A DNA stretch of 64,000 nucleotides. Origin: Oligoflexia bacterium (lineage in GTDB: Bacteria; Bdellovibrionota; Bacteriovoracia; Bacteriovoracales; Bacteriovoracaceae). The notes below the pieces were generated by a model. It did no database searches, was not told where the DNA came from, and was given only the letters and a program-made list of their open reading frames with translations. Made by a program: the position numbers and the translations under genes. The stretch spans positions 87,908 to 151,907 of the forward strand of contig JADGAN010000003.1 of NCBI GenBank assembly GCA_015231955.1, read 5' to 3'. Shown piece after piece: positions 33,543 through 64,000 of the stretch (positions within the stretch are counted from its first letter, which is position 1; each line of letters opens with the position of its first letter).

Positions 33543-33561
33543 ACCTAATTACACCTTGCTA

Positions 33562-46560: not shown

Positions 46561-46567
46561 GCCTGAC

Positions 46568-47446: not shown

Positions 47447-48722
47447 AAAGGATGCCTTGATAGTAATAAATGGATGCTATGGTTTTTTGTAACTCAGTAA
47501 TTGAAGAGTAGAACTCTTTTTTTGTGGCAGTCTTGGTGCGAAGGGCGGTAATCATATCTAAATAGGAGACACGGCCATTACGGTAGTCATCATAGAGATT
47601 AGAAAAGTTATCCTCTTCCAGTTTATAAAGGTCGTAATTTAATTTATACTGCTGAAAAATTTGTTCATATTGAACTCGCATTTTCTCTAAATCGCGGGCA
47701 AGATCGCTAAGTTCTTGTGTAAGCTGTGTACTCTGCTGGTATTTTTCTTCAACAGCAATTTTATGTTCACGTTGAGAAATGCCCCAATCCCAAAGGGTGA
47801 ATTTAACAGTCAAGAGGATACTCCAATCTAAGCTCTCGTTATGACGAAAACTGCCATTTCTGTGCTCTCCTAGATAATCTTTCGTACTATAGGTAGAGGT
47901 GGCGTCGAGGTAAAATTCAGGGCGAAGTTTTTTTCTAGCAAGGATGACGTTGTTCTCATGCACTTCCTGGGCAATGGCACCCTGTTGGTATTGAAGCGAT
48001 TGCTTACTGCTGAAAGTTGGAAAAATCATTTTTTTTACAGAGGTAGGAATTGTTAGCGGTGTAAACTCTTGATGAAGCAGCTCTTGGGGATTCAATGAAG
48101 TCGCTAAATCTAGTTTGGACTTAGCAATCGCACTCTTGAGAGAGAGTAGTCCAATTTCTGTTTTTTGCAGTTCCCCTTTTAAACGGAGATAGTCTAATTT
48201 TGTTTTTAGCCCTTGCTGATAGAGCGTAGAGGTGTGTGAAAATTGTTTTTTAAGCAGGGCCAACGATTCCTCTTCAATCAGAAGTGTTTGTGCTAAGTAA
48301 GAGTAATCAAGGTATTGTTGGAGCAAATTGTAACAAAGCTTATTCTTTTCTAAGATTATTTTTTTTTCCGAAATTTTTTGTGAGAGCGACGCATTTCTTA
48401 TTGCAATAAAAGTAACTCCATTATCATAAAACTTTTCACTTAGTTGGAGAGAAAAGTTGGAGACCCAATTGTGTACATTGCTTTTATGGTGGAATTCATC
48501 TTGGTATCCATGGGTGGTTTGTAATGCAAGCTTAGGGAGCAGTGAGGAAAAATTATTCTTTTCTTTGTAGGTGGTTACGAGATATTCACTTTCCAGTGCA
48601 TGAAGGGCCTGCGAATTTTCTAGTGCCAAGTGAAGAGACTGCTTGAAGTCTAATGCTAGGGCAGTAGATTCAAAACAGCAAAAAAAGAGGGAAAAAAGAG
48701 ATAAGACAACAGAGTAAATCAA
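47400..48722 (-). CDS. TolC-like outer-membrane efflux protein
   Basis: 440 residues. The signal peptide covers about 1-23. The OEP repeats start with FKQSLHLALENSQALHALESE and include the characteristic TLYQQGLKTKLDYLRLKGE and LYDDYRNGRVSYLDMITALRT segments. It forms the outer-membrane duct for the MacAB pump encoded immediately downstream. The missing hairpin in the adaptor suggests it may reach further into the periplasm. Confidence 0.88.
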   Translation of the reverse strand: MIYSVVLSLFSLFFCCFESTALALDFKQSLHLALENSQALHALESEYLVTTYKEKNNFSSLLPKLALQTTHGYQDEFHHKSNVHNWVSNFSLQLSEKFYDNGVTFIAIRNASLSQKISEKKIILEKNKLCYNLLQQYLDYSYLAQTLLIEEESLALLKKQFSHTSTLYQQGLKTKLDYLRLKGELQKTEIGLLSLKSAIAKSKLDLATSLNPQELLHQEFTPLTIPTSVKKMIFPTFSSKQSLQYQQGAIAQEVHENNVILARKKLRPEFYLDATSTYSTKDYLGEHRNGSFRHNESLDWSILLTVKFTLWDWGISQREHKIAVEEKYQQSTQLTQELSDLARDLEKMRVQYEQIFQQYKLNYDLYKLEEDNFSNLYDDYRNGRVSYLDMITALRTKTATKKEFYSSITELQKTIASIYYYQGILYDKVVKDNSTATLFY

Positions 48723-48799: not shown

Positions 48800-50062
48800 T
48801 TAGAAGCTATACCCAAAATTAACAGAAATTCCCTTCGTTTTGCTGGAGAAAAGATAGGTTACTCCCGCTCTTAAATAGTGGGCCAGATCGGCGCGTGATT
48901 TTACACTACCAAGTGAAAAGCCAATCTCATTATATTGTTCCATATAAAGTTCAGAACCAAAATAACGAGTATCAATCAGAAAAAGTTCACTTTCGGAATC
49001 CCATTTGAAAAGCTTATGAGGAAGGGAGTACATCACACCATTCCTCAGTACAGTATTGGCAATATGGGGATTAGACTCATAACCTTGGACTTTAAATTTA
49101 AGTGTTTTGTAGTAACCAAGCATATTGCCCATAGTGAGTGATCCTAAAGGCAGAGTCCAGGTGTAGCTGCTGGTGACAGCAGCGGAGGCCACTTGCCCTG
49201 CTGATGCCATATCTACAGAGCCCACTACACCAGTTGCCAGAGAGGGGGTAATGGTCCAGGTGGGGGCGACGGGAAGGCGAAAGCTAGCACCAAGACCAAT
49301 ATTATAGGATTTACTCTCCTCTAATTTAAAGTAGGTCAGCGGCAAATCAAAAATTAACTGCTTTCGAGGATCGCTCTTGAAGCGAACAGCATAAGAGAGA
49401 GGGAGGGTATAGCTTCGGCCTTTAAGTCCTGCTTGCTGATACTGGCCAATACGAATTCCTGCTCCAATGAGGTTGGAGATCTCTCCGCTTGTCGTGGTCT
49501 GTTCTGAGGTGGTGGTATCTTTTGTCGCAGCTGAACTCTCCGTAGAGACAAAGCCGCGTCCAAAATCGTTAGCAACCATGGTGCTCATTAAACTTGTAGG
49601 ATTTCCTGCGACAGGGTCAAAGGGAGAGACTTCTGCCAGTTTTTTCATGACAGCGTTTAAGGTAGCTTGCCCATCCCGCTTTAACCAATTTTTAAATTGC
49701 TCTTTACTATCATCGCGGGAGGTTCCTGAGAATGTTTGTGAAAGATTGATTGAAGGAATAGAGAGTACTAAGTCATTGGTTCCTCCACTACCAAAACTAA
49801 GATCCATCGGCAGCCCTCTAAAATCCAGTGCTACTGTCACACTTCCTGCACCTGTATAGTTGGGAAAGTTATTGGTGATGCTGCTGGATTTAATAGCGTT
49901 TACAACATCTTCAAATTTAGCGTATCCAAACTGCTTGTTTACTCCTTCAACCGTCATGTTGATGTTGAAGAGGGCCGCATGGATATTGGGGATGGAAAAC
50001 AAAAACAGAGCACATAAAAGCAAAGAGGCCATAACACTACGGATGAGTTTTAAGGAAGTCAT
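48800..50062 (-). CDS. Exported protein with outer-membrane beta-barrel C-terminal half
   Basis: 420 residues. The signal peptide is at about 1-29 (ASLLLCALFLFSIPNIHA). Residues 30-150 are a soluble domain (FGYAKFEDVVNAIKSSSITN; DLVLSIPSINLSQTF), and residues 200-420 are strand-rich and Gly/aromatic-rich, ending in SVNFGYSF with a C-terminal Phe. Family not recognised. It lies upstream of the tolC gene on the same strand, 77 bp away; a functional link is possible but unproven. Confidence 0.75.
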   Translation of the reverse strand: MTSLKLIRSVMASLLLCALFLFSIPNIHAALFNINMTVEGVNKQFGYAKFEDVVNAIKSSSITNNFPNYTGAGSVTVALDFRGLPMDLSFGSGGTNDLVLSIPSINLSQTFSGTSRDDSKEQFKNWLKRDGQATLNAVMKKLAEVSPFDPVAGNPTSLMSTMVANDFGRGFVSTESSAATKDTTTSEQTTTSGEISNLIGAGIRIGQYQQAGLKGRSYTLPLSYAVRFKSDPRKQLIFDLPLTYFKLEESKSYNIGLGASFRLPVAPTWTITPSLATGVVGSVDMASAGQVASAAVTSSYTWTLPLGSLTMGNMLGYYKTLKFKVQGYESNPHIANTVLRNGVMYSLPHKLFKWDSESELFLIDTRYFGSELYMEQYNEIGFSLGSVKSRADLAHYLRAGVTYLFSSKTKGISVNFGYSF

Positions 50063-50113
50063 CGTAACGAACTCCTGTAAAGGTTGGTTATTAATAAGGT
50101 TAAAAGATAGCTT

Positions 50114-50752
50114 TCAATGTCTATTGAAAAAGCTCAAATACTCTTTTGCGGCCAAGTGGGGATGAGATGCAGTCCAGATTCCACGGATCACTCCAATACA
50201 ATCAACTCCAGTCTCCAAAACGTTTCGCAAGTTTAGTGGAGTTATTCCTCCGATGGCCACAATAGGCAAATCGGTCTCTTGCAGGCAGTGCCTTAATAAA
50301 TCTGTACCAACAATGGGATCGGGAATTTTTTTACAGTCGGTTGCGTAGATAGGCCCAACTGAGAGGTAATTGACATTACTACTTTGCTTGTATTTTTGAA
50401 AATCTTGAGCATTATGGCAGGATACACCGAGCATGCGATCTTGCCCGATAATTTTTCTGATATCTTCCACCTCAAAATCGCGAGGGCCAATGTGCATACC
50501 ATCGGCATCACAAAGAACGCAAATATCGGGCCTGTCGTTGACGAAGAAATAGGCCCCATGCTCTCGAGTAATAGCACGAATTCTTCGGGCCCAAAGCAGG
50601 TGATCGCGATCGCAAAGATCCTCTTTCGCACGAAATTGGAAGATGCGTATCCCTGCAGAGAGAATCTCGATAAGGGTGTGTTCAAATTTTTGCATATTGG
50701 GGTGATCACGTAGGCCCCCTACCACATAGACGCCTGAAAAAATATTGCTCAT
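50114..50752 (-). CDS. thiE: Thiamine phosphate synthase
   Basis: 212 residues, TIM barrel. Landmarks: IFQFRAKEDLCDRDHLLWAR, FVNDRPDICVLCDADGMHIG and LSVGPIYATDCKK. Joins the thiazole phosphate and pyrimidine diphosphate to give thiamine phosphate. It is the last gene of a five-gene thiazole operon and starts 6 bp after thiS. Confidence 0.9.
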   Translation of the reverse strand: MSNIFSGVYVVGGLRDHPNMQKFEHTLIEILSAGIRIFQFRAKEDLCDRDHLLWARRIRAITREHGAYFFVNDRPDICVLCDADGMHIGPRDFEVEDIRKIIGQDRMLGVSCHNAQDFQKYKQSSNVNYLSVGPIYATDCKKIPDPIVGTDLLRHCLQETDLPIVAIGGITPLNLRNVLETGVDCIGVIRGIWTASHPHLAAKEYLSFFNRH

Positions 50753-50758
50753 CGAAAA

Positions 50759-50965
50759 TTAGCCTCCATCAACCATAGTTAATATTTCAATTTCATCGTG
50801 TTCTTCAACGAAGGTGTTGATGAAATCTTTAGCAAGAATAATAGTACGATTTTTTTCAATAACTACTCCATGATTAGAAATAGCAAGCGCAAGTAGCAAC
50901 TCGCAAAGATTTAGAGAGCGAGGTAGTTTGGTTTTTTTACCATTAAGGGTGATTACTATTTCCAA
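50759..50965 (-). CDS. thiS: Sulfur carrier protein ThiS
   Basis: 68 residues with the beta-grasp fold pattern ([11 protein letters not shown] at the start, EEHDEIEILTMVDGG at the end). The terminal Gly-Gly, needed for adenylation by ThiF and thiocarboxylate formation, is intact. It overlaps thiH by 23 bp. Confidence 0.9.
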   Translation of the reverse strand: MEIVITLNGKKTKLPRSLNLCELLLALAISNHGVVIEKNRTIILAKDFINTFVEEHDEIEILTMVDGG

Positions 50966-52004
50966 GGAAGACTCCTTTGTTTAATTCCATTTGCCAATCT
51001 TTTGTATGGAGATCGAATCCAAAACGTGCAAGCGATGCTGCCATTTCTGCAAAAGAGCGGTGGTCAGAGATATTGAATTGCTTTAACTCTTCATGGGCGC
51101 AATCATTGCTATTGCTATATCCTCCAGGAGCAGTCATCGATTCCACACTCAAATGGGTGATACAAATGCGTAGCAACCCATCTCGCATTTCTGGGCGTTC
51201 GCGTGTCGATAACAGGATTGGCATTTCCGGAAAGCATAAACGAAAAGCGATCAGCGTTCGTGTAAAGTCGATATCACTTAGGGGAAAATCTCCGGCAATC
51301 CCCCCTTCTGCACTGTTGATCCTCGGAATGGAGAGTGAAAATTGTACATCCCAATAGTTTTGCTTAATAAAAGAGAGGTGTTCGAAGAGCGCCTTGGCAT
51401 CATAGTCAATCGGGGCCAGTCCACCTAAAATTCCTAAGGTGACCTTTTTAAAGCCGGCCTTGATTGCTCGTTCAATACTGTGGATGCGATAGTGGTAATC
51501 ACTCTTCCTGCCAGCAGTATGATACTTTTTATATTGCTCTTGATGATAAGTTTCCTGATAGAGTACAAAGCAGTCGGCACCAGCATTTAAAAGTTCCAGC
51601 ATGAGCTGATCTGAAATTGATCCAAACTCCACACTAATTGCTTGCATTCCAATCCTTGTTGCGAGCGCAACAGATTCAACTAAAAGCTTGTGATACTTTT
51701 CATTATTCACTTCCCCTGCCACTAAAAGTACATGGCGGTATCCTCGTTTATAAATATAGAGCAGCTCTTGCTCTATTTCTTTTGGCAAGAGTGTTTTGCG
51801 TAGGTGAGTATTGTTCTTATTAAACCCACAATAGGTGCAAGAGTTTTCACAAAAATTGGAAATGTAGAGTGGGATATAGACGCCTTTGCTCTTGCCAAAT
51901 CTTTCTAGAGTTAAGAGGCGTGCCTGATCTGCCTCCTGCTCCATTTGCTCAAGAGAAAAAGGGTCTTTATCAAAGGGGAAAAGAGTGCTCACGGTTTTGC
52001 TCAT
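50943..52004 (-). CDS. thiH: 2-iminoacetate synthase (radical SAM) ThiH
   Basis: 353 residues. The radical SAM Cys triad is in [13 protein letters not shown] (CxxxCxxC). [13 protein letters not shown] and [13 protein letters not shown] are typical of ThiH. It cleaves tyrosine to dehydroglycine for the thiazole ring. Using ThiH rather than the O2-dependent ThiO is compatible with life at low oxygen, in line with the hydrogenase. It overlaps thiG by 35 bp. Confidence 0.92.
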
Positions 52005-52800
52005 CTGTTGTTGGAGTGTTGCTATAGAGAAAACCTAGCAAGGGCGAAGAGGCCTCTGCAGATTTTTTGCTGGCCGGAAGCCCGATCTCATAGGCCATTC
52101 TTCCTGCGGCGGTGGCCATCTTAAAAGCACAAGCAAGGGTAATGGGATCTTCTGCAATGGCGATGGCCGTATTGACTAAAACCGCATCGGCACCGATCTC
52201 CATCGCCAGAGCAGCGTCACTCGGTCTGCCAATCCCTGCATCCACCACCACGGGGATGGATGCATTTTCAATGATGATTTCTAGCATTTCACGCGTCTTT
52301 AATCCACGATTGGTTCCAATAGGTGCTCCTAGGGGCATCACCGTTGCAGTACCCACCTCCTCTAACCTTTTTGCAAGTAAGGGATCGGCATTGATATAGG
52401 GAAGAACAACAAAGCCATCGGCCACAAGCTTAGTACACGCTTCTAGTGTTCCTATGGGATCAGGAAGCAGGTGGTGTGGATCTGGTACAACTTCGACTTT
52501 AATCCAATTGCTTCCTGTGAGTGCACGGCAAAGGTGAGCAATGCGAATCGCCTCTTCCGCATTTCTGGCCCCAGAGGTATTGGGAAGCAATTGGATATTA
52601 TTGGGAATATAACTTAAGATATTGCTTTTTTGTTCCTGAGTTTTACTAAGGTCAATTCGTCTCAACGATACAGTGACAATTTCGCACTCTGATTGCAAGA
52701 TGGCAGACTTCATCACCTCAAGTGAAGGAAATTTTCCTGTGCCAATCATTAAGCGATTATTAAATTGCTTACCACCGATGCTAAGCTCTTTTCTTATCAT
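51970..52800 (-). CDS. thiG: Thiazole synthase ThiG
   Basis: 276 residues. Landmarks: [18 protein letters not shown], the catalytic Lys in [19 protein letters not shown], and [20 protein letters not shown] followed by [10 protein letters not shown]. It builds the thiazole ring from DXP, dehydroglycine and ThiS thiocarboxylate. It overlaps thiF by 4 bp. Confidence 0.94.
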
Positions 52801-53528
52801 AAAACCTCCGATTTGCTACAACGAGAACAACGATGAGTTATTGTTATTTTTTTTGTTAAAACTCTCATAAGATCACAGTAGAGCAAAATATTTTTCCACT
52901 CATCAAGGCCGTTCCTGGTTAGAAATTGCACACCTGCTAGTGCTTGCAGGGTAGAGGTGAGTGTGGCAGTAAGGCCAAGAGTTCCTGTGTGCTCACTTTT
53001 TCTTGGGGGCATGGGCATGAACTCTTGTATGCAGCGTAGGCAATGTCCACCCTCTGGCCAGTAGAGGAATACTTGACCATAGATGTTGTATGCAGAAGCA
53101 AAAACGTAGGGGCGTTTTACTGCATAGAAAAAATCTGCAAGCAGAATTTTAGTTTCAAAGGCATCGGTACAATCAAAGACTAAATCGTAGTTTTGTAATT
53201 GATGAATATTGTTATCGGCAATTTTTTCTTCTTTGGCCTTAAGTTTGATGTGTGGGTTTAGCCGAGATGCCTCACGAATAGCACATAAGGCCTTACTTTT
53301 TCCAATATCGTCATAGCGATAGAGGAGTTGACGTTGCAAATTGCCTTCACTGACCACATCGAAATCCCAAAGATCGATCACTCCTACACCTAAACCGGAA
53401 CATTGCATGAGTAGATTGTGGCCCAGCCCTCCGGCCCCAATAATGGCAATGTTCTTTTGTAAAAGCTCTTCTTGAGACTTTGCGTTTGGAATAAGCAGTG
53501 TGAGATTCTTTTCAAAAAAAATATCCAT
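52797..53528 (-). CDS. thiF: ThiF-type sulfur-carrier adenylyltransferase
   Basis: 243 residues. Nucleotide-binding [12 protein letters not shown], the [15 protein letters not shown] loop that positions the carrier, and two CxxC zinc pairs (GHCLRC; RCSRCS). It adenylates ThiS; MoeB is excluded by the operon context. It leads the operon. I looked for a TPP riboswitch in the 130 bp upstream and saw no THI-box core. Confidence 0.9.
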
Positions 53529-53659
53529 GACCTGCTATAAACCCCCTTCTTAAAGTGTAGGAACCGTAGCATATATAATGGAGATATGCAATCAAGGTCC
53601 AGTATAGGTTTCTCGAGAATGAGAAGAGTGAGAAGAATTAAGAAGCAGGAGTATTGCCG

Positions 53660-54475
53660 ATGGTGTGTAAAATTTGTGGAGCGAAACAGAAAGAGTGGTT
53701 TTCTACTAAAGTATTACAAAAGTATGAGGTTCGTTACTATTTTTGTGAAGAGTGTGGTTTTCTTTGCACTGAAGAACCTTACTGGTTAGCGGAGGCATAC
53801 TCTTCTGCCATTGCAGACACCGATGTAGGATTGCTATCAAGGAATAATATCAATTGTAGAATTCTTAGCAATATCATTTACTATCTGTTACCAAAGAGAG
53901 GGCGTAATCAAATTTTTGTTGATGTCGCAGGAGGCATGGGAGTGCTAACTCGTTTGATGAGAGATGTGGGCTTCCATTTTTACTGGAGTGATAAGTATGC
54001 AGAAAATATTTTTGCTAAATCGTTTGAGTATGCTGGTGATGTTTTTTATAAAGAGAAAAAAGAAATTTTTGCTCTGACTGCATTTTCTTTTCTTGAACAT
54101 TTAGTTGATCCAAAAGCTTTCATCAAAGAAGCTATACAAAAGCACTCAACAAAAACCATAATCTTTACGATGGATATTTTTAATGGGGTTCCACCTTCTA
54201 CGGATTGGTGGTACTATAGTTTTAAGACGGGGCAGCACATCTCTTTTTTTCAGGAAAAAACCCTGAAAGAAATGGCAAAAAATCTTAATTTGTATCTCTA
54301 TTGGAGTAAAGATTTTTATATTATGTCCGAATATGTGCTGAGTAATACGATATTGAAGTTCTGTACGGGGTTGCTTTCACACTTTTTGTTTTTGAGAGCA
54401 AAAAAGGGAACGAAGTCGCTATTACCTAATGATTATGATTATCTCTTGCGATTAGGTGAGGATGATGGGGCCTAG
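53660..54475 (+). CDS. SAM-dependent methyltransferase with N-terminal zinc ribbon
   Basis: 271 residues from the ATG at 53660, eight bases after an AGGAG. Residues 1-42 have two CxxC pairs (CKICG; CEECG) forming a zinc ribbon. A class I methyltransferase fold follows: FVDVAGGMGVLTRLMRDVG as the SAM loop, AFSFLEHLVDPKAFI, and GQHISFFQEKTLKEMA, typical of sugar or C-methyltransferases related to methyltransf_11/23. It overlaps the next gene. It may act on a cell-surface glycan or on the product of the downstream cluster. Confidence 0.75.
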   Translation: MVCKICGAKQKEWFSTKVLQKYEVRYYFCEECGFLCTEEPYWLAEAYSSAIADTDVGLLSRNNINCRILSNIIYYLLPKRGRNQIFVDVAGGMGVLTRLMRDVGFHFYWSDKYAENIFAKSFEYAGDVFYKEKKEIFALTAFSFLEHLVDPKAFIKEAIQKHSTKTIIFTMDIFNGVPPSTDWWYYSFKTGQHISFFQEKTLKEMAKNLNLYLYWSKDFYIMSEYVLSNTILKFCTGLLSHFLFLRAKKGTKSLLPNDYDYLLRLGEDDGA

Positions 54476-55505
54476 TGAACATAAGAAGGATTCTTTGAGT
54501 ACGTTTAATTCAAACGAAGTCTACTTTGCTCAAACACCAGTTGCCTATTTTTTTTATAATAGGCCAGATCTTATAAGGCAAACATTTCAAGAGATCGCTA
54601 AAGCAAAACCAAAAAAACTTTTCTTGATTGCAGATGGGGCCAAAGATGCTGACGATGAAAAATTTTGCAAGATAAGCAGAGAGGTAGTAAAGAGTGCGAT
54701 TGATTGGCCTTGTGAAGTTTATAATAATTTTTCATCCACACATTTAGGTTTAGGAGAGAGAGTTGCTAGCGGCATTGCTTGGGTATTTGAAAAGGTGGAA
54801 GAGGCCATTTTTATCGAAGATGATGTTTTAGTTCATAACTCCTTTTTTCAGTATTGTGATCTGCTGCTCGATTATCATCGTAATAATCTGCAAGTGATGA
54901 TGATCTCTGGATGTAATCTTTTTCCCTCTCTCTCCAATGAGACTAACAATGTCTCTTCTTATCTCTTTTCTCGTTATCCTATGGTTTGGGGATGGGCCAC
55001 ATGGAAGAGGGCCTGGAGTAACTATGATCTGAAGATGCAAGAGTGGCCTCATTGGAAAAATCGTTCCGATTTAAGTGATTACTTTGTGAACAAAGAAGAA
55101 GAGCGCACCTTTCAATTTAATTGGGAGCGAGTCTACTCTTATGGATTTGATACCTGGACTTTTCAATGGGATTTTTGTCGAGTGATTGCTCGAGGATTAG
55201 GACTTATCCCTAAGAAAAATTTAGCTGTGAATATTGGTTTTGGAGAATCTGCTACCCACACCAAAGACAGCAGCAGTTTTTTAGCTCATTTGCCGTTGCA
55301 AACGATGGAGTTTCCTCTTCATCATCAGCGTGAAGATGCGATCTTACATGATCAGGCTTACTTTAAAAAAATGATTAAACGTGCAAGTTTCTTGCAACGA
55401 GCGCTTCTTCGTATCTCCCAGCTTTTTTCTTGCAGGAGTGAGACAAAACCGAAAGTGAAAGCAAGAGCAAGCACAGATCTCACCCAATCGGCCAGGCCTC
55501 TTTAA
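54465..55505 (+). CDS. GT-A-type glycosyltransferase, HlpA-like
   Basis: 346 residues from the ATG at 54465 (GTG 54456 and ATG 54462 are alternatives). Start of the GT-A fold is PVAYFFYNRPDLIRQTFQEI; the metal-binding acidic motif is AIFIEDDVLVHNSFF; then MVWGWATWKRAW and GFDTWTFQWDF, typical of proteins loosely called HlpA-like. The donor and acceptor are unknown. The last ~35 residues are basic. It overlaps the methyltransferase upstream; an 87-bp gap separates it from the radical SAM gene, so it may belong to a different unit. Confidence 0.72.
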   Translation: MGPSEHKKDSLSTFNSNEVYFAQTPVAYFFYNRPDLIRQTFQEIAKAKPKKLFLIADGAKDADDEKFCKISREVVKSAIDWPCEVYNNFSSTHLGLGERVASGIAWVFEKVEEAIFIEDDVLVHNSFFQYCDLLLDYHRNNLQVMMISGCNLFPSLSNETNNVSSYLFSRYPMVWGWATWKRAWSNYDLKMQEWPHWKNRSDLSDYFVNKEEERTFQFNWERVYSYGFDTWTFQWDFCRVIARGLGLIPKKNLAVNIGFGESATHTKDSSSFLAHLPLQTMEFPLHHQREDAILHDQAYFKKMIKRASFLQRALLRISQLFSCRSETKPKVKARASTDLTQSARPL

Positions 55506-55592
55506 ATTTTAAAAAGATTGCTCACAGGGAGTTGTTGCCATTCATTTGTTTGTCGTGTTATAAGGGCCGACAGACAAAAAGGAGCACTGCAA

Positions 55593-56552
55593 ATGAGCAA
55601 TGAAGTAGCGTTAATTTCAGAGGGATTTCTTGGTTCTTGTTGGTATGGCAACTACCACTACCTAGAGCCATGGATAGGTTGCAATAACGACTGTATTTAC
55701 TGTTATGCAAGGGCAAGGGGTACTGTTAAAAACTCCCTTGAGCGTTTTCAAGATAAGGCCTTTGCCCACCCACGTCCTCTGTATAGCGATCATGAGGAGC
55801 TTTGTACTAAAATTAAAAGTGAAATTTCCAAACACACGGCCAAAACGTTAAAGCTTTGTCGCTATACCGACTTTTTCACTCCCTCCATGCAGCAAGAAAA
55901 TCTGCCAGCAAAAATCTTGCAAACCATTTGCGAGGAGACTTCCGTTCAAAGGATCATTATCACGACTAAGTGTTGTCCAGATCAGAACTCTATCGAGATA
56001 ATGAAGCGATTCCCAGAGCATTTTTCAATGAATCTTGCACTTTTACCGAGAGAGGATCACCTTTTGATGCCATCATTAAAGATGGATGAGGCCTTAGAAC
56101 AGAAGATGCTGACAACTGCAAAAATGATCCAAGATTTAGGGGTAAAAACAACGATTCACCTTGATCCCATTAGCTTTAGTGTTATTTCCAAAAGCGCACA
56201 ATGGGAAAGCTTCCTTGCTAAGATTAGAAGTGCTGGATTATCACGAGTGATGTTTTCCTATTTGGTTTTAGATCCGAACATCATGGAAGAGATTTCAAAG
56301 ACAATCTCTAAAGATTACTCGGAAGAGCTCTTCTCTTTGTTTGATTTTACCAAGGCATTTGATTACGACTACACTGATGAGTCACTATGGTATATGAAGC
56401 AAGAGATTCGGCAGCAGCACCTGGAGATGATCTCAAGTTTACTGACAAAATTGGAATTTGACTTTACATTATGTTCACTCAAAAGCGCCAAAGGTGGAGT
56501 TGATGCTAAAAAGGCCGCTTGTCGAGTTTGCAATGGTGATTTTTATGCCTAA
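55593..56552 (+). CDS. Radical SAM enzyme, spore-photoproduct-lyase-like family
   Basis: 319 residues from the ATG at 55593, nine bases after AAGGAG. The 4Fe-4S triad is C30/C34/C37 in EPWIGCNNDCIYCYARARG, the arrangement of COG1533/SplB-like proteins. More Cys occur at the C-terminus (LCSLKSAKGG and CRVCNGDF), possibly an auxiliary cluster. It is unlikely to repair spore photoproduct in this organism. It overlaps the ATP-grasp gene by 8 bp, so the two are probably made together and act on one pathway. Confidence 0.82.
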   Translation: MSNEVALISEGFLGSCWYGNYHYLEPWIGCNNDCIYCYARARGTVKNSLERFQDKAFAHPRPLYSDHEELCTKIKSEISKHTAKTLKLCRYTDFFTPSMQQENLPAKILQTICEETSVQRIIITTKCCPDQNSIEIMKRFPEHFSMNLALLPREDHLLMPSLKMDEALEQKMLTTAKMIQDLGVKTTIHLDPISFSVISKSAQWESFLAKIRSAGLSRVMFSYLVLDPNIMEEISKTISKDYSEELFSLFDFTKAFDYDYTDESLWYMKQEIRQQHLEMISSLLTKLEFDFTLCSLKSAKGGVDAKKAACRVCNGDFYA

Positions 56553-57672
56553 GAAAATATGGATTCCCAATTTAGATGATCTTGGCCCCTCTTTTGATCC
56601 AGATATTGCCAGTGCCGCAGAGAGTCGCTATCTATGGTTTTTAAATGAGGGGGATCTTGCCGTTTTAAGTCGAGCTACGAGCGACTCTTTTTTGAAGTAT
56701 TTATCGAAGTTTATTCCCTCTCTTGCCTCAGAGAATATCTTATTTCCTATTAGCACCAAGAGTGGTGAGAGAAAGTTAAAGCTTGTGAATAGTATTTTGG
56801 CGGATCGATCACTTCTGCAGAAACTAAAAGAGCTTGCAAAACAAAGAACAGATCTGTACCTCGCCTCCTATATCGCGTCTCCTAGTATTTTGCAACTTTC
56901 AGAAGTAACGGGAATACCTCTGGATCCTTTACAAATGCCTACTCGTCCCTTCATCAGTGGAGGACTCACCTACGTTTTTAATTCTAAGAGCAAAATGAAA
57001 CTTGTTGCCAACGAGTTAGCAATTCCCTTTATCGCCTATAGTGTTGCCAACTCCTATATTGAGCTAGAGAAATCAGTTTACCAATTGATAAAATCGCATA
57101 ACCCCCATAAACTCATTCTAAAAAAAGCACTCTCAGGAGGTGGCCATGGAAATTACTCAGGCACGCCAGAAAATGTGCTGTCCATCGCCCAAACTTGGTA
57201 CCGTGAGGAGTGTGAGGTGGCAGAGGAGATTTTGATAGAGCCCTATATGAATTTTAAAGAGATTATTGGCGCTCTTGCATATGTGAGTGAAGATAATATT
57301 TATTTTCATGGGATCGATAAGCAGCTCATTGAAAACGATGGATGGAGTGGGATGATCTATCCTTACATTAACGAAAAGTGGGGAGAGCAAATAAAAAATT
57401 GGACACTTAAATTTGCTAGTAGATTGCAAAATGCTGGAGGAAGGGGATGGTTTAATTTAGATTTTGCAACCTATCTTGATTCGAAGGGGTGTGAGCAAGT
57501 GGTGTTTATGGAGTCTAATTTTCGTTGTAATGGTTTTGCCTTAATGTTGGAAATCGCTAAAAAAACGCAGCAAAAAGGAAGAATATACTACTCCAGCACG
57601 CTAAAAAAAGAGCAAGGAAACTGCTTCCTACTTGATGAGTACTCTTCTCAGTATGTCTCTTTTGAGCATTAA
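56545..57672 (+). CDS. ATP-grasp ligase, PGM1/peptide-ligase-like
   Basis: 375 residues from the ATG at 56545, inside the end of the radical SAM gene. An N-terminal pre-ATP-grasp domain (about 1-145) is followed by ATP-grasp motifs: LILKKALSGGGHGN (P-loop-like glycine stretch), EILIEPYMNFKEI, and the metal-binding strand RGWFNLDFATYLD with VVFMESNFRCNG. Such enzymes form amide bonds between a carboxylate and an amine via acyl phosphate. Substrates are unknown. It lies 12 bp before the MFS gene. Confidence 0.8.
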   Translation: MPKKIWIPNLDDLGPSFDPDIASAAESRYLWFLNEGDLAVLSRATSDSFLKYLSKFIPSLASENILFPISTKSGERKLKLVNSILADRSLLQKLKELAKQRTDLYLASYIASPSILQLSEVTGIPLDPLQMPTRPFISGGLTYVFNSKSKMKLVANELAIPFIAYSVANSYIELEKSVYQLIKSHNPHKLILKKALSGGGHGNYSGTPENVLSIAQTWYREECEVAEEILIEPYMNFKEIIGALAYVSEDNIYFHGIDKQLIENDGWSGMIYPYINEKWGEQIKNWTLKFASRLQNAGGRGWFNLDFATYLDSKGCEQVVFMESNFRCNGFALMLEIAKKTQQKGRIYYSSTLKKEQGNCFLLDEYSSQYVSFEH

Positions 57673-57684
57673 TCGATTATACCT

Positions 57685-58899
57685 ATGAATAGTTTCAAAC
57701 AGAAAAGTAACAAATTTGAAGCACTCCTGCTTGTTACTAGCTTTGTGACCATCTTTGCATTCGTGGCCATTGATAATGTAATCTCTCCTCTGATTCATTT
57801 GCTTGAAAAATTTTATTTTGTTGCGGCCACGGATATTTTAAAGTTAGTCTCCATTTGCAATGCAGGAGTTGTTGTTGGAACTTATTTCGGCCCCATCTTC
57901 ATTGGTCGCTTTGGAGTTGTTCGCACCTATCTTGGCAATGTTGCTGTTTTTTTGATGACCTTGATGATCTTTTTGTGGGTAAGGAATTTTGAATGGGCGC
58001 TTGCACTGCGGTTTATTTTGGGCATTGGTAGTGGCGTCTTTGCAACACTCTATTGGTGGTTTACCTTTCATGCAGCAATCTCTTCAAAAAGTAAAGACTA
58101 TATGATTTCCATTTTGCTTGCAACGAGATCACTCGCGATTGCCTTAGGAGTTCCGATGCTGCTTTTCTTGAGTATTTATGGGGGTATGGGTTGGCAAAGT
58201 GGCTTTATCGTATTGGGGATTTTGATGTTGATGATAAATTTTATTTTCTTTAACCAGCTTGAAATGACTAAAGATGCAGGGAAAAGCACGCCTCAACACC
58301 AGCATCAACAAGGGTATATCGTACTAACAAAAAACAGTAACTCTTTGCTTTTTTATGCAGCGATTTTTTTCGTGGCCATCCCCTATTTTGGTTTTTATTC
58401 CTTTAGTGGATATTGGTATTTAGTAAGACTTCATTTTACAGAGAATAATTTATCGGTACTCTTTTTTATAATAGGGGCAATTGAGGTTGTCGTAACCTTC
58501 ATTTGCCCCTATTGCTATAAAAAAAAATCGTCAAGGCCGATGATGAACTTAGGGATAGTATTGATGATTCTCTCCTATCTGATTTTTTTTCTTGTTAAGG
58601 AAAATGTGCTTTTATCCAGTATCGTTATTATCTTCTCTCTTATCGGTAACCGTGTATTAATGTTTGCTTTTACTAAGAATATCCCTAACATTTTTTCGTT
58701 TTTGGAGAACAAGGCCATTGCGGCCTCTGCTGCAACCTTGGTATCGTGGGGAGCTTTTTCTGTGATAGCGTGGGTGCAATCACTAGTGATCGCCAATTAC
58801 TCACCAGTGGCCGTGTGGCAAATTATGTTTTGGGCATTAATCATTGGATCTCTACTAACACAAATTTTAATGAAGCGAGTGAGTGAAAAAAATGGATAA
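57685..58899 (+). CDS. Major facilitator superfamily transporter
   Basis: 404 residues with 12 hydrophobic segments in two halves and a cytoplasmic loop near 195-215. The helix 2-3 region FGPIFIGRFGVVRTYLGN is the usual Arg-containing MFS loop. It is located between the ATP-grasp and methyltransferase genes and overlaps the latter by 8 bp, so it may export the cluster product or supply a precursor. Confidence 0.85.
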   Translation: MNSFKQKSNKFEALLLVTSFVTIFAFVAIDNVISPLIHLLEKFYFVAATDILKLVSICNAGVVVGTYFGPIFIGRFGVVRTYLGNVAVFLMTLMIFLWVRNFEWALALRFILGIGSGVFATLYWWFTFHAAISSKSKDYMISILLATRSLAIALGVPMLLFLSIYGGMGWQSGFIVLGILMLMINFIFFNQLEMTKDAGKSTPQHQHQQGYIVLTKNSNSLLFYAAIFFVAIPYFGFYSFSGYWYLVRLHFTENNLSVLFFIIGAIEVVVTFICPYCYKKKSSRPMMNLGIVLMILSYLIFFLVKENVLLSSIVIIFSLIGNRVLMFAFTKNIPNIFSFLENKAIAASAATLVSWGAFSVIAWVQSLVIANYSPVAVWQIMFWALIIGSLLTQILMKRVSEKNG

Positions 58900-59572
58900 T
58901 AATTTTAATCAAATGTGGAATCAACAAGAATATGTCGCTAGGTATAACCAAGTTTATCCACTCTTAGATCAAGATTGCCAACTCTATTGTGATCTTTTGC
59001 AAATAAAGATGGATGATCACCTTTTGGATCTAGGTTGTGGAGAGGGGTATTTTGTAAAAAAATTGCTAGAGATGGGGATCAAAAAAATCACTGTAGTAGA
59101 TGTTTCAGGAGAACAGCTTCTGCGTTTAAGAGAAAAATTAACACCTCAAGAAGAGCAAAAGCTAACAATTATAGAGGGGGATTTTGAAAGCATCAGCTTT
59201 CCTCAAGAGCAAGTAACCAAGGTTTTTGCAAGGGCATCTCTTCATCACTTGGATCAATTAAAAAAACGCCTCTTCTTCCAAAAATTAAAAAGTGTAACAA
59301 AGAAAAGTGCTCTATTCCTTTTACACGATATGGTTTTTGATTTCCCCAAAGAAGAGCTAAATCAGCAAATGCCAAGATTGTTGCAAGAGGCATCTGTTCA
59401 TTATGGAGATCGATGGATACTCAAAAAAGAGGATATCATTGCCACCTGGTTTGATGAGTTTCCTGAAGATTTTAAAACATGGATTAGTGTATGCAAAGAG
59501 GGGGGGCTAGAGTTAGTCGGTCGCAAACGCATTACCAGCTTTCTTTCAATCCTACTGTTTTCCAAAATTTAA
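58892..59572 (+). CDS. Class I SAM-dependent methyltransferase
   Basis: 226 residues from the ATG at 58892 (GTG three codons upstream is an alternative). SAM motif I is LLDLGCGEGYFVKKL, followed by VVDVSGEQLLRLREKL and the ARASLHHLDQLKKRLFF motif, then a C-terminal helical part. The methylated substrate is unknown. Its 3' end overlaps by 21 bp the convergent KAS III-like gene, placing the two operons tail to tail. Confidence 0.83.
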   Translation: MDNNFNQMWNQQEYVARYNQVYPLLDQDCQLYCDLLQIKMDDHLLDLGCGEGYFVKKLLEMGIKKITVVDVSGEQLLRLREKLTPQEEQKLTIIEGDFESISFPQEQVTKVFARASLHHLDQLKKRLFFQKLKSVTKKSALFLLHDMVFDFPKEELNQQMPRLLQEASVHYGDRWILKKEDIIATWFDEFPEDFKTWISVCKEGGLELVGRKRITSFLSILLFSKI

Positions 59573-60559
59573 AATGGCCGCAGCAGTATAGTCGCCAGCA
59601 TGAGAAAAACCAGCAAGTAAAATTTTTGCTTTATCTTTGATCACCCCTTTACGAATTGCCAGATCAAGATTTATAGGGATTCCTGCTTGAAAAAGATTGG
59701 CATAATCTTCAAAGGTGTCAAAATGTTTTTCTGCGGGAACCTGGATCGATTCGCGCCAATTTCTTAAGAAGAAGGGATTGGGTTGGTTCGTGATTAAAAG
59801 GTCAATCTCCTTTGCTGAGTTCTTGGACTCTTTTAAAATTTCATGCATGACCACAGGAACAATACGATTGCCTCTCATGATTACGGCCGAGATTTTGCCC
59901 TCACTAAAATCGACAGAGCCTGGACTTATGCTTGGTTGCCACCAACGGCTTTCATCCTCTCTGGCAATGGTCATATCCGTGGAGTATTCGGGATAATTTT
60001 TAACTAAAATATGTTCAACTTGATTATCACCCTCATCGTGAAAGAGCGCAACACTGGCACCATCGCCAGGGATGGCCGCTTGGGCCTTGTCATTGACCCC
60101 TGGGAGGGAAAAAATCCTACCTGCCGCAGTCTGTCCCACGCATATAAGAATACGCTTGATATTTTTCTGCGGGTTATTGATTAAGATTTGTGCTAACTCC
60201 ATTAAGGTAATGAAAGAGACACAGCCGCCATTGTGAACATCAAAAATAAAGCGTGGTTTTAAGTTTAAACGTTTTGCCAGAATTGCTCCACAGCCAGTAA
60301 AGGGAAGCTCTGGGATGGAGACGTTGGTGAGAATGGCATCCACCTCCTCGCGTAGATCTATTCCCTTCTCCTCGGCCATTTTGCGAGCGGCCCTTTCAAA
60401 AAGATCGACTTCACCCTCATTTTGCTCAACGTGACGACGGTATTTAGTGCCTTTGAACATCTTGCTGTTACTGTCGCTGATTCCTGCAAAAAAAGAGTTA
60501 TCCACAATTTTTTCAGGGAGTGCAGAAGCGATTGCCATTAAGGAGAGTTTTTTATTCAT
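59552..60559 (-). CDS. KAS III (FabH)-like enzyme with His to Asn active-site change
   Basis: 335 residues, thiolase fold. The nucleophile is C113 in VHNGGCVSFI. Aligning with E. coli FabH (C112, H244, N274), the HQAN block reads NQPN here (N258 replaces His), while N288 in YANLFQAGIP matches the Asn. GDGASVALFHDEG is also family-like. A true FabH needs the His for decarboxylation, so this is more likely an acyltransferase or a modified condensing enzyme for a special metabolite. It overlaps the SRPBCC gene by 4 bp. Confidence 0.82.
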   Translation of the reverse strand: MNKKLSLMAIASALPEKIVDNSFFAGISDSNSKMFKGTKYRRHVEQNEGEVDLFERAARKMAEEKGIDLREEVDAILTNVSIPELPFTGCGAILAKRLNLKPRFIFDVHNGGCVSFITLMELAQILINNPQKNIKRILICVGQTAAGRIFSLPGVNDKAQAAIPGDGASVALFHDEGDNQVEHILVKNYPEYSTDMTIAREDESRWWQPSISPGSVDFSEGKISAVIMRGNRIVPVVMHEILKESKNSAKEIDLLITNQPNPFFLRNWRESIQVPAEKHFDTFEDYANLFQAGIPINLDLAIRKGVIKDKAKILLAGFSHAGDYTAAAILNFGKQ

Positions 60560-61230
60560 TGGCGAACCCCTAAAATATTAGGCCCCATGGGTAACTTGTT
60601 TTTATAGCGAAATTCTAAAATTGCTTTTAGGTTTTGCATTTCAGCGGCGTGGCCTGCATAAAACCAATCCCAAAGATCTCCTACCCAGAGGCGATTAGCA
60701 GGGGCTTTCTCTGGATAAGGGTTATTCAGATAGTAGGGGTGACGACAGTTGGTCCATAATACTACCGATCCGGGTTTCTTTAACACAAGCTCTGCGGGAA
60801 TGATTCTGTTTAAGTAGATCATCCACAGATCCTCTCCTTGATCCCAAGCGCAGTGATAATCAACGGTCATGGCATCTTTATTGCTGATAGTTTTACAATA
60901 AATCTTCGTGTGACCACTACCCACTTTATCTACACCCTCATGCACCTCTGGAAGATGACAGGGCTTAAAATCGCGAACACTAAAGGTCCACTCCTCAAGA
61001 GAGATGGTCTCTTTCATATACTCAAAGACAACCTCTGGTGGACAGTCGATATACTCTTCAACAGTGCAATACTGCCCATAAACATCGTTATGAGGATAGA
61101 CTGCATGTGTGGTCTCCATCATATCGGCATGAAAATTATCCAGGGGGTAAGTTTCAAAGCGACGAACTCCTGGAATTGTTGATAAAAATTGGTGATCAGT
61201 TCTTTCTGGAATAGTAGTTTCAAGTGACAT
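60556..61230 (-). CDS. SRPBCC (START/Bet v 1-like) family protein
   Basis: 224 residues from the ATG at 61228-61230, with GAGAGGAG nine bases upstream; a TTG three codons earlier is possible. The central EEYIDCPPEVVFEYM is the START-like beginning strand, preceded by about 60 residues of N-terminal extension. Many Trp/Tyr residues suggest a hydrophobic pocket. Such proteins bind or cyclise lipids or polyketides. It lies between the carboligase and KAS III-like genes, with 2 bp and a 4-bp overlap. Confidence 0.72.
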   Translation of the reverse strand: MSLETTIPERTDHQFLSTIPGVRRFETYPLDNFHADMMETTHAVYPHNDVYGQYCTVEEYIDCPPEVVFEYMKETISLEEWTFSVRDFKPCHLPEVHEGVDKVGSGHTKIYCKTISNKDAMTVDYHCAWDQGEDLWMIYLNRIIPAELVLKKPGSVVLWTNCRHPYYLNNPYPEKAPANRLWVGDLWDWFYAGHAAEMQNLKAILEFRYKNKLPMGPNILGVRQ

Positions 61231-61232
61231 TG

Positions 61233-63005
61233 TTAACAACTCCTCTCTGTTGAGATTGATAATGGGGAATACTTTATTTTTAGTTGGCGAAATGCGGGAT
61301 TATTGATCTCTTTTGCAAGACAATCATTAAAGGGTAAGAATTCTGGCATTTCATCAATATTGATTTTAAAAACTAAAACAGTTGGGCCATGAAAGGGACG
61401 ACTTTTTAAAACTTCTCTCAGAGCAAAAAATTCTTCGTAGGTTGCTGCTGAAAAGGCGCGAATGCGTTCTCCAAACATTGCTTGCAGTGAAGCTGCGATA
61501 TTGACATCATCGAAACGATTAATCAGAGAATCGTTGTTTAAAAAGAGTTGATCTCGAGTGACACACATACCGTGGCCACTATTATCAGCAATCACAAACG
61601 TGATGGGCAAGTGATATTCAACTGCTGTGTGGATTTCCATTCCATTCATATAGTAGGCACCATCGCCAGCAAGAGCGATGGTTTTTTGATTATTGCCCAT
61701 ATATGCACCAATGGCAGCCCCAAAGCTATACCCCATGCCACCCATACCGAGTGCTATGCTAAAAGTGGTGTTACTGTTACGCTTGATTTGGATCTCTCGA
61801 ACAGCATTGCAAACAGCATTTCCTGCATCGATCACCCAATTAATGGATTCTTTGGAATCACTTTGTAGTGAGTTTAAGAGATCGCCAATGTGATTCACTG
61901 AAATTTGCCCTTGCAAATTTTCTAAGTCCAAGGGAGTAGTCAAAGTAGTTTTTTGATCGGGGCAACCGAGGGGAGTAGAGGGATCAGTAGCTTTTATATT
62001 TAAGCTGGAAATCCATTTAGCAATCGCTCTACCAAGGGAAGGAACGTTGATGTAGATGCCATTAGCGCCCTGCCAGTAGCTAACAGTAGTATTGATGATA
62101 GTAACAAAAGATTCGTCGCGCTTGAAAAAATCTTCTAAACCATAACGTTCCATAAAAGAGAGCTTGGTTCCAATCAGTAGAAAATTTTTTGTTTGTCCTA
62201 AAAGCTTAGAGATTTCACTGCGACTCTTTGTCATCACTCCAGCAATTCCTCGATAGCGAGGGTGATCAGAAGGAAAGGCGGCCTTTCCTTCGGGGGTGAC
62301 TAAAACATTGGCTTGCATTATTTCCGCAAGCATGATCGCTTTAGCAACAATATTTTCTTGTACAATCTCTTCACCAAAGACAATGGTGGTCGGGCCAACG
62401 ATTGTAGGAAATACAATCTCCTCCAAAGGATTGATGGATCGGTTGCTGATAAGTCTTGGCCTAAAGTTGACTTTAGAGAGCACACTGTTTTGAATGTTTT
62501 TTGGCAAGATAATGGCGGCCGGGCGTCGATGGTAACGGATGGCAATCATGGATTCCGCCAAAGTATCCGCCATCTCATCGGGGGCAAGTACACGCTTGCA
62601 ATAGCACGTAACATTCGACAATAGTTTTTCAAGGTTGAGTGTGTGATTAATCCCGCTTCCATCCTGAAAAGCACCCTTTCCATCTAAGGAGGTAGGAGGG
62701 GCCCCGATAATGGCCAAGAGGGGAATATAGGAGTTGTAAGCCTCTCCTAGCGCGGGAACGATATTAAGGGCCGCTCCTCCTGAAGTAGTGAGCACAGCGG
62801 CCACTCTTCCACTACTCCTGTAATGGCCATCCGCCATTGTAGCAGCGCCACCCTCTTGTTTTGCTAGTATAAGGGTTGCGTTCGGCCGATTCGCAGGGCT
62901 TAGGGCAAAGAAGAGATCCTCTATGTTGGCCCCGCTTACTCCAAAGAAGTGCCTGATTTTTGCAGTATCTACAAGATAATTTGCTACAAAATCTACAAGT
63001 TTCAT
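61233..63005 (-). CDS. Thiamine-diphosphate-dependent carboligase (acetolactate synthase-like)
   Basis: 590 residues with the three-domain layout of the IlvB superfamily. The catalytic Glu is E51 in AKQEGGAATMADG, and the ThDP/Mg motif GDG (447-449) to N475 is intact (IALAGDGAYYMNGMEIH). It decarboxylates a 2-oxo acid and joins the aldehyde unit to another acceptor. No IlvN-type regulatory subunit or other branched-chain amino acid genes are nearby, so a special-metabolism role is likely. It is the first gene of the operon, with an AAGGAAA ribosome-binding site. Confidence 0.87.
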   Translation of the reverse strand: MKLVDFVANYLVDTAKIRHFFGVSGANIEDLFFALSPANRPNATLILAKQEGGAATMADGHYRSSGRVAAVLTTSGGAALNIVPALGEAYNSYIPLLAIIGAPPTSLDGKGAFQDGSGINHTLNLEKLLSNVTCYCKRVLAPDEMADTLAESMIAIRYHRRPAAIILPKNIQNSVLSKVNFRPRLISNRSINPLEEIVFPTIVGPTTIVFGEEIVQENIVAKAIMLAEIMQANVLVTPEGKAAFPSDHPRYRGIAGVMTKSRSEISKLLGQTKNFLLIGTKLSFMERYGLEDFFKRDESFVTIINTTVSYWQGANGIYINVPSLGRAIAKWISSLNIKATDPSTPLGCPDQKTTLTTPLDLENLQGQISVNHIGDLLNSLQSDSKESINWVIDAGNAVCNAVREIQIKRNSNTTFSIALGMGGMGYSFGAAIGAYMGNNQKTIALAGDGAYYMNGMEIHTAVEYHLPITFVIADNSGHGMCVTRDQLFLNNDSLINRFDDVNIAASLQAMFGERIRAFSAATYEEFFALREVLKSRPFHGPTVLVFKINIDEMPEFLPFNDCLAKEINNPAFRQLKIKYSPLSISTERSC

Positions 63006-63401
63006 CTTGATTTCCTTTTGCTTGGATTAAGCTGAAGGTAAGAGGTCTTTGCCGACGATTATTAAAATAAAATATTTTTTTGCTCTTGTGCAAACAGAAA
63101 TCAAAAGGGAGCGATAACATCTCCTTCTCATAGTGTAAAGCTCTTTTAAGAAGGGGCCTTATCTTTGATTTTGTTGGTTTCGCAGATATTGCTGGCAACT
63201 TTTTCTGGCAGATCTGTAGAAGCAGTAGAAGCAAATGATCGATAGATAAAAATTGTGTCAAATGGAAGAAAGCAAAAACGAAGTTATCTATATGAAATAA
63301 TTGCTAGAAAAATTTAAGGAAAAATTTTTCATAAACTTTTCAAAAAGAGATATTTTTTCATTAGGTGAGAAAAGCTTTTGCGATTACAATTGGGCCATGC
63401 C
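63006..63401. other. Gene-free stretch upstream of the carboligase operon
   Basis: About 400 bp, AT-rich, with no credible reading frame. It presumably holds the promoter of the minus-strand operon; I see no clear sigma-70 or sigma-54 match. The right part leads into a candidate small RNA. Confidence 0.5.
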
Positions 63402-63430
63402 TTGAAACACTTTGCTAAGAAGACTCTAAA
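63402..63430 (+). promoter_or_regulatory. Candidate promoter for a small RNA
   Basis: TTGAAA (63402-63407), a 17-bp spacer and TCTAAA (63425-63430). The -35 is good and the -10 is mediocre. Initiation near 63437 would produce a transcript of about 90 nt to the terminator. Confidence 0.45.
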
Positions 63431-63436
63431 AGGGTT

Positions 63437-63529
63437 CTTGTAGAGCGGGTGAATCGAGGTGGATATTGGGGGATTACTATTCATCGGGGGGAGAGAGTTG
63501 TTGATAAGACAACGCTCTCCTTTTTTTTT
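63437..63529 (+). ncRNA. Candidate small RNA ending in a strong intrinsic terminator
   Basis: A plus-strand terminator at 63490-63529 has no plus-strand gene in front of it within 3.9 kb, and a promoter-like sequence lies about 60 bp upstream. The region between contains no reading frame with a ribosome-binding site. It overlaps the last 2 bp of the hemerythrin gene on the other strand. Its function is unknown. Confidence 0.45.
63490..63529 (+). terminator. Strong intrinsic terminator, plus strand
   Basis: Stem GGAGAG-A-GTTGT / ACAAC-G-CTCTCC (11 pairs with one A-G mismatch) around a 7-nt loop (63502-63508), followed by nine T (63521-63529). The opposite strand lacks a T-run, so it acts only on plus-strand transcripts. 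Confidence 0.85.
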
Positions 63530-63950
63530 AAAGAGATTGCTTCTTCTTTTCTAAATAATACTCGGCAAATTTTCGATCCTCTTTTTGAATGTGGTTTAAA
63601 AACCAATCTTTCAAGAAAACGGTGAGTTCTTTAAATTTGCTTAGATTTTTTTCATTTTTTGAATTAGAAATAGAGTTATATTCTAAAATTTTCTTATTAA
63701 AATCATGGTGAAGATCTTTATGTGCATTTATGTTTGGCCAATCGATCTTTTTCATCTGTTGTTCTTCATAGGTGAAATGAATAATGGAATATTTTTTTAG
63801 GTCTTGAATCAACTCGAAAGCAACAAGCTCTTTTGGCTTTTTTCCATCTCCGATTTTAAGTAAAACATCTTCGATTATTTGTAAAAATCGAGTATGTTGC
63901 TCGTCAAGATTAGGAATGCCTATACGGTATTGTTCGGGAAGAGAATCCAT
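63528..63950 (-). CDS. Bacteriohemerythrin
   Basis: 140 residues, four-helix bundle with the di-iron ligand set visible: H in LDEQH, HFTYEE (His and Glu), HKDLHHDF (two His), and HIQKED near the C-terminus (His and Asp). It binds O2 in the cytoplasm, for storage, delivery or sensing; no extra signalling domain is attached. It is single, and its upstream region continues beyond the window. It could shield O2-sensitive enzymes such as the hydrogenase and radical SAM proteins encoded nearby (inference). Confidence 0.92.
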   Translation of the reverse strand: MDSLPEQYRIGIPNLDEQHTRFLQIIEDVLLKIGDGKKPKELVAFELIQDLKKYSIIHFTYEEQQMKKIDWPNINAHKDLHHDFNKKILEYNSISNSKNEKNLSKFKELTVFLKDWFLNHIQKEDRKFAEYYLEKKKQSL

Positions 63951-64000
63951 CTTAATTTACTCCTTTTTTCTAGGGCCTATTGACAGGGATGTAATTAGGC

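Follow-up and report, generated by a model that had tools for sequence, protein, structure and literature searches.

The closest described counterparts of the genes analyzed here are the three-enzyme sets of carquinostatin and neocarazostatin biosynthesis. As described in the available text of PMC7466098, the three kinds of enzyme in these trios act one after another: the ThDP-dependent enzyme CqsB3/NzsH couples indole-3-pyruvate and pyruvate, and CqsB2/NzsI carries out the ring closure. The same text mentions that Streptomyces cattleya, Sorangium cellulosum, and Scytonema have homologous trios, and therefore the existence of trios in distant bacteria was already known. The remaining member, CqsB1/NzsJ of Streptomyces, shares with the protein studied here the KAS III fold, the three-gene partnership, and a nucleophile that is expected to come from the ThDP-dependent neighbor. 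Among other KAS III-like enzymes, PqsBC and PqsD of alkylquinolone biosynthesis use a nucleophile other than that of FabH, and to our knowledge they are not linked to a ThDP-dependent enzyme or a CqsB2-like cyclase; the protein studied here differs from them in having Asn in the HQxN position. We also know of no CqsB2-type cyclase partner of CerJ or ChlB3. Like our protein, these two enzymes combine a KAS III fold with changed catalytic residues (PMC9573744, available part), but their Cys-His-Asp residues are placed otherwise, and they catalyze acyl transfer with no C–C bond formation.

A three-gene cassette in the window

In the window, i.e., the whole stretch of 64,000 nucleotides that was analyzed, the following three genes correspond to the members of such a trio.

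61233–63005, minus strand: ThDP-dependent acetolactate-synthase-like carboligase, counterpart of CqsB3/NzsH (Pfam, NCBIfam)
60556–61239, minus strand: CqsB2-type (Bet v1/SRPBCC fold) cyclase of the carbazole synthase family (CqsB2 match)
59552–60559, minus strand: KAS III-like condensing enzyme related to CqsB1/NzsJ, Asn258 class (ORF, Pfam, model, tree)

The genes for the ThDP enzyme (590 aa, with three TPP_enzyme domains over the cut-off) and the cyclase (227 aa; likely start ATG at 61230, with an AGGAG site before it) both lie upstream of the KAS gene on the same strand. The cyclase stop and the KAS start share 4 nt (ATGA), and the ThDP stop sits 2 nt ahead of the likely cyclase ATG; therefore, the genes probably form one translationally coupled operon in the order ThDP-cyclase-KAS.

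The window cyclase had no match in Pfam or NCBIfam, and its match to CqsB2, the carbazole synthase, in the PDB (6ipv/6ipw) had an E-value of 1.5e-46. Five catalytic residues of CqsB2 are named in the available text of PMC7466098, and equivalents of Tyr144, Tyr172, His206, and Glu209 were present in 116/116 aligned cyclases. The position of the fifth, Glu105, was occupied by Glu in 5 and by Asp in 111 of the 116 cyclases aligned with MAFFT, and in the window cyclase MAFFT pairs it with a neighboring Asp and phmmer with Lys105. The window ThDP enzyme shares with CqsB3/NzsH the acetolactate-synthase-like domains and the adjacency in the cassette. Compared with the CqsB-type cassette of Embleya, the window KAS is 20% and the window ThDP enzyme 27% identical, and therefore the substrates may differ. 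The window accordingly holds a CqsB2-type cyclase, an adjoining acetolactate-synthase-type ThDP carboligase, and a KAS III-like operon partner, and, judged by homology, the KAS gene supplies the condensing enzyme of a cassette homologous to CqsB3-CqsB2-CqsB1.

Several other groups of genes were observed in the window. Genes for a radical SAM-like protein, a pre-ATP-grasp protein, an MFS transporter, and a methyltransferase stand in a row at 55518–59572 on the plus strand, convergent with the cassette, and are possibly a separate small biosynthetic operon; the 3′ ends of the methyltransferase gene and the KAS gene overlap by 21 bases. On the minus strand, genes for ThiE, ThiH-like, ThiG, and ThiF-like proteins (50114–53528) lie in the neighborhood of the ThDP-dependent cassette, at a distance of about 6 kb, maybe by chance. 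Also on the minus strand are a MacB-type ABC exporter accompanied by genes for HlyD-like and outer-membrane partners (44542–48722) and two large FHA-domain proteins that also matched a YscD-type cytoplasmic domain model (30164–35118). Genes with a hemerythrin domain were found near the cassette in three loci (window 63528–63950, minus strand; L033:8889–9599; L037:7329–7961); the window gene was considered as a fourth member of the cassette and is given here as a side observation.

Distribution of the cassette and its gene neighbors

Among 58 searched genomes consisting of the source genome and its relatives, one related KAS was found, with 45% identity (L004/L038). Five related KAS were detected on actinobacterial plasmids, and the other plasmid matches were less than 30% identical. 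In the genome collection, 310 stretches encode a relative of the KAS, and 80 of these loci were taken. Their hosts were mycobacteria (among the named carriers are M. gastri, M. persicum, and M. attenuatum), nocardiae, Bdellovibrio sp. qaytius, Bacteriovorax, myxobacteria, Planctomycetota, and Bacteroidota. Loci L119–L122 were omitted as duplicates of other loci. Across the 116 loci compared, including the window, both KAS and cyclase were present in 116/116, and the ThDP enzyme was matched in 113/116, some of the loci being cut by a contig end. The gene order in 87 loci other than the window was ThDP-cyclase-KAS in 77, cyclase-KAS-ThDP in 6, KAS-cyclase-ThDP in 1, and another or incomplete order in 3. 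In L035 and L046, the KAS gene is split over two frames.

Judged by its cyclase, the cassette occurs in 131 of the 198 genomes in the GTDB genus to which Mycolicibacterium xanthum (L045) belongs, in 39 of 394 from the family that includes Streptomyces sp. RPT161 (L097), and in 8 of 290 sampled genomes from the source phylum, the source genome being one of the eight. In the mycobacterial genus, some genomes had two or three copies of CqsB2-like cyclases, and three small genomes (G528, G542, and G568; 3.2–3.3 Mb) gave only far weaker cyclase matches that may be decayed copies. A search of the open-access literature for CqsB-type machinery in mycobacteria or Bdellovibrio found no paper on the topic, and a search of this literature on the mechanism gave no result.

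When the neighboring genes were clustered, only the trio and a cytochrome P450 group stood out, and antisense ORFs from high-GC genomes obscured the rest. Related P450 genes stood beside the cassette in 13/88 loci from several phyla, for example:

L038:4981–6360, L040:9815–11290, and L112:8890–10224: cassette-adjacent cytochrome P450

An aminotransferase match was present in the flanks (≤12 kb) of 73/88 loci, mostly directly adjoining the KAS or ThDP gene. These aminotransferases belong to two lineages: the actinobacterial one is PRK03321/HisC-like, and the other is that of Bdellovibrionota; the two actinobacterial proteins examined were nearest to histidinol-phosphate-transaminase models, namely PRK03321, and scored below its cut-off. 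In a Bacteroidota metagenome-assembled genome (L043:1395–4217), the aminotransferase and the cassette ThDP enzyme are fused in one frame. Because an aminotransferase flanks so many of the loci, comes from two lineages, and is once fused to the ThDP enzyme, the donor of the carboligase is probably a 2-oxo acid derived from an amino acid. For chlocarbazomycin, the available text of PMC10100901 assigns the analogous step to a histidinol-phosphate-transaminase-like enzyme. L046 looks like a similar aminotransferase-ThDP fusion interrupted by a frame break. No tryptophan aminotransferase of the CqsB7/NzsD type was detected at window positions 49001–64000. The sole class I/II aminotransferase match on the source contig was weak and about 53 kb from the cassette, and among the 21 such matches of the source genome, no gene of the cassette kind adjoins the cassette.

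Asn258 and the inserted residue 320 of the condensing enzyme

The KAS gene encodes 335 aa from an ATG start on the minus strand, and its plus-strand reading contains many stops. The preliminary description had recognized a KAS III-like protein here, and this was borne out by a Pfam C-terminal domain and by the modeled fold. The protein scored above the cut-off for Pfam ACP_syn_III_C (60.6 vs. 26.6 bits), slightly below it for the N-terminal KAS III model (21 vs. 24), and far below it for the NCBIfam FabH models TIGR00747 (77.6 vs. 292.1 bits) and NF006829 (104.5 vs. 249). FabH enzymes were the best sequence matches with solved structures, and PqsC was among the better ones (E 2.4e-12). An AlphaFold2 model built from 27 sequences (the window protein and 26 relatives) had a mean pLDDT of 90.3; Foldseek retrieved the KAS III fold (best E 2.8e-27), and VIA-align superposed the model on E. 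coli FabH (1hn9_A) with a Z score of 39.3 and an rmsd of 2.3 Å over 312 residues. Among the listed matches of these two comparisons, no entry bears the name CqsB1, which carries no weight either way. The residues discussed below are encoded as follows.

60221–60223, minus strand: Cys113 codon, acyl-accepting nucleophile by homology; the residue starts helix 112–127 in the model
59777–59788, minus strand: codons of N258-Q-P-N261, which replace HQAN of FabH (alignment)
59696–59698, minus strand: Asn288 codon, in the context YAN288LF; the residue aligns with the Asn that KAS III proteins conserve
59591–59602, minus strand: codons of H320-A-G-D323; the loop corresponds to FGGGF of FabH, with His320 as a single inserted residue (alignment)

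In place of the Cys-His-Asn triad of FabH, the window KAS has Cys113 (in the context VHNGGC113), Asn258, and Asn288. The retention of Cys113 and Asn288 and the reading of the HQAN block as NQPN had been reported previously, and all of these were found in place. The preliminary description mentioned neither the strand nor the conserved His320 of the C-terminal loop. Two other KAS III genes of the source genome (L002 and L003) both encode HQAN.

We then compared these positions across the cassettes, using 114 of the 116 loci because two KAS matches of 280 residues or less were omitted. Cys113 and Asn288 were present in 114/114, and position 258 was Asn in 109 and His in 5, so the replacement of the catalytic His by Asn proposed earlier is real, and is neither chance nor a sequencing slip. 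These counts include many close mycobacterial kin and are not independent events, and the 80 collection loci, which were picked by likeness to an Asn258 alignment, favor the Asn258 class; among loci reached through the cyclase alone (L123–L151), Asn258 was found in 24/29 and His258 in 5/29. Ordinary KAS III proteins of the source genome and its relatives had His at this position in 29/29 (29 of the 30 loci among L002–L032 other than L004, one having no match of sufficient length).

The five His258 proteins came from exactly those loci whose cyclase has an identity of 0.70–0.86 to CqsB2, and the next highest identity was 0.50. They are from Embleya sp. NBC_00896 (cyclase 86% identical to CqsB2) and four further genomes (71–73%), and all read THQPN, whereas the remaining cassettes, including the window, read TNQPN or, in a few cases, SNQPN. 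Correspondingly, the cyclases are 70–86% identical to CqsB2 in the His258 class and 37–50% in the Asn258 class. His258 therefore marks the carbazole-type branch and Asn258 all other cassettes. From the five CqsB-type near relatives, we infer that CqsB1 itself has His258. In a tree of 43 of the 143 rows, thinned by identity and with the trait columns excluded, the Asn258 proteins formed one clade (99/99) that was sister to the His258 proteins (100/99), and the ordinary KAS III proteins were placed apart (100/100).

The oxyanion hole of FabH is formed by two amides, those of Gly306 from the C-terminal loop and of Cys112. The ordinary KAS III proteins have F-G-x-G in this loop and no residue at position 320 (29/29), whereas all 114 cassette KAS have one extra loop residue there, which is His in 109, Asn in 4, and Gly in 1; the insertion is thus common to the window KAS and the five CqsB-type proteins, in which it is Asn (4) or His (1). 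The pairs at positions 258 and 320 were Asn/His in 108, Asn/Gly in 1 (L145), His/Asn in 4, and His/His in 1 (Embleya). Read most simply, the insertion would predate the split between the Asn258 and His258 proteins, and a single change from His to Asn at position 258 would have taken place in the common ancestor of the Asn258 proteins. The KAS of L145 (G400) has Asn258, Gly320, and Glu323, with His at neither place, and therefore His320 is not strictly needed alongside Asn258.

A proposed reaction and alternative explanations

We propose, with a probability of roughly 0.72, that in this cassette an acyl group passes from Cys113 to a β-keto acid supplied by the carboligase while CO2 is lost, and that the cyclase then closes a ring. 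Acyl-ACP or acyl-CoA would provide the acyl group that loads Cys113. The β-keto acid would lose CO2, and its enol(ate) would attack the acyl-Cys thioester in a decarboxylative C-acylation assisted by hydrogen bonds from Asn258, Asn288, and the oxyanion loop. The unstable product would be handed to the CqsB2-type cyclase for closure of the aromatic ring, a step suggested by the invariance of all but one of the five catalytic residues named in the literature. The expected nucleophile is not a malonyl thioester; this may explain the loss of the FabH His, and it is plausible that the window KAS has lost malonyl-ACP decarboxylation.

The mechanistic suggestions of the preliminary description fared differently. 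Formation of a different C–C bond, for which the neighboring carboligase would make the nucleophile, is supported by the published trio as described in the available text of PMC7466098. The suggestion of a non-decarboxylating reaction found no support: the characterized relatives lose CO2 during condensation, and the NzsH product is stated to be “subjected to facile decarboxylation” (PMC9822442, available text). A product that decarboxylates so easily does not obviously need strong help from a His. However, His258 is retained in the carbazole branch, where the nucleophile is believed to be the same, so that easy decarboxylation alone is insufficient to explain the change, and the substrate of the window enzyme may therefore differ. 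A carbazole would be a plausible product of the window cassette. By analogy, the cassette would work like the CqsB trio, to which it is homologous, while standing outside the His258 (carbazole-type) branch.

It is improbable, in our assessment, that the Asn258 KAS acts as a plain acyltransferase in the manner of CerJ and ChlB3, moving the acyl group from ACP or CoA to a hydroxyl or amine without decarboxylation, so that the carboligase only makes the acceptor. The absence of the FabH His from the window KAS would agree with this, but the CqsB2-type cyclase present in every one of the 116 cassettes implies a C–C-bonded ring precursor, as in the published trio. Asn288 of the window KAS presumably occupies the position equivalent to CerJ His295. 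KAS III-like enzymes that perform plain acyl transfer do exist (ChlB3/CerJ, with Cys-His-Asp), but the His of CerJ is essential and the H295N variant is dead (PMC9573744, available part). The lost canonical His and the low score against the FabH model (TIGR00747) could also be signs of decay, in which case the protein would be a pseudo-enzyme whose sole role is to bind the cyclase or acyl-ACP. This is very hard to reconcile with a full-length, uninterrupted, probably translationally coupled gene and with the conservation of Cys113, Asn288, and, in 109/114, Asn258 across several phyla, and a decayed gene was rejected on this residue conservation. Least credible of all is an ordinary FabH paralog with a neutral substitution; the KAS III fold (Z about 39) would fit, but two other KAS III genes of the genome keep HQAN and the cassette proteins have their own clade and gene context. 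This candidate was rejected on the HQAN paralogs, the separate clade, and the FabH-model scores below the cut-off.

The reciprocal occurrence of His and Asn at positions 258 and 320, which goes back essentially to one evolutionary split in the tree, suggests a possible relocation of the imidazole, out of the HQxN loop and into the oxyanion loop. His320 would then do the job of FabH His244, and the enzyme could still decarboxylate malonyl units; we regard this as possible and only tentatively so. It would account for His320 in 108/109 of the Asn258 proteins and Asn320 in 4/5 of the His258 proteins, with no such residue in ordinary KAS III, and Asp323 accompanies His320. However, L145 has neither His and the Embleya protein has both, and residue 320 may merely shape the pocket. 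Relocation is in part compatible with the decarboxylative C-acylation that we prefer. It is rather unlikely that a broader proposal holds in full, namely that a carbazole-type branch, in about two thirds of the sampled mycobacteria and in some bacteria of the source phylum, carries the relocated imidazole (N258/H320) and makes undescribed aromatic indole-type metabolites.

These results describe a conserved KAS III lineage that spans several phyla, lacks the canonical His, and has named expected partners, which makes it a testable departure from the Cys-His-Asn rule. The contrast between N258/H320 and H258/N320 offers a handle for mutagenesis on how KAS III enzymes use a nucleophile other than malonyl-ACP. 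The cassette also leads to the prediction that many mycobacteria and some bacteria of the source phylum would make carbazole-like or related aromatic compounds.
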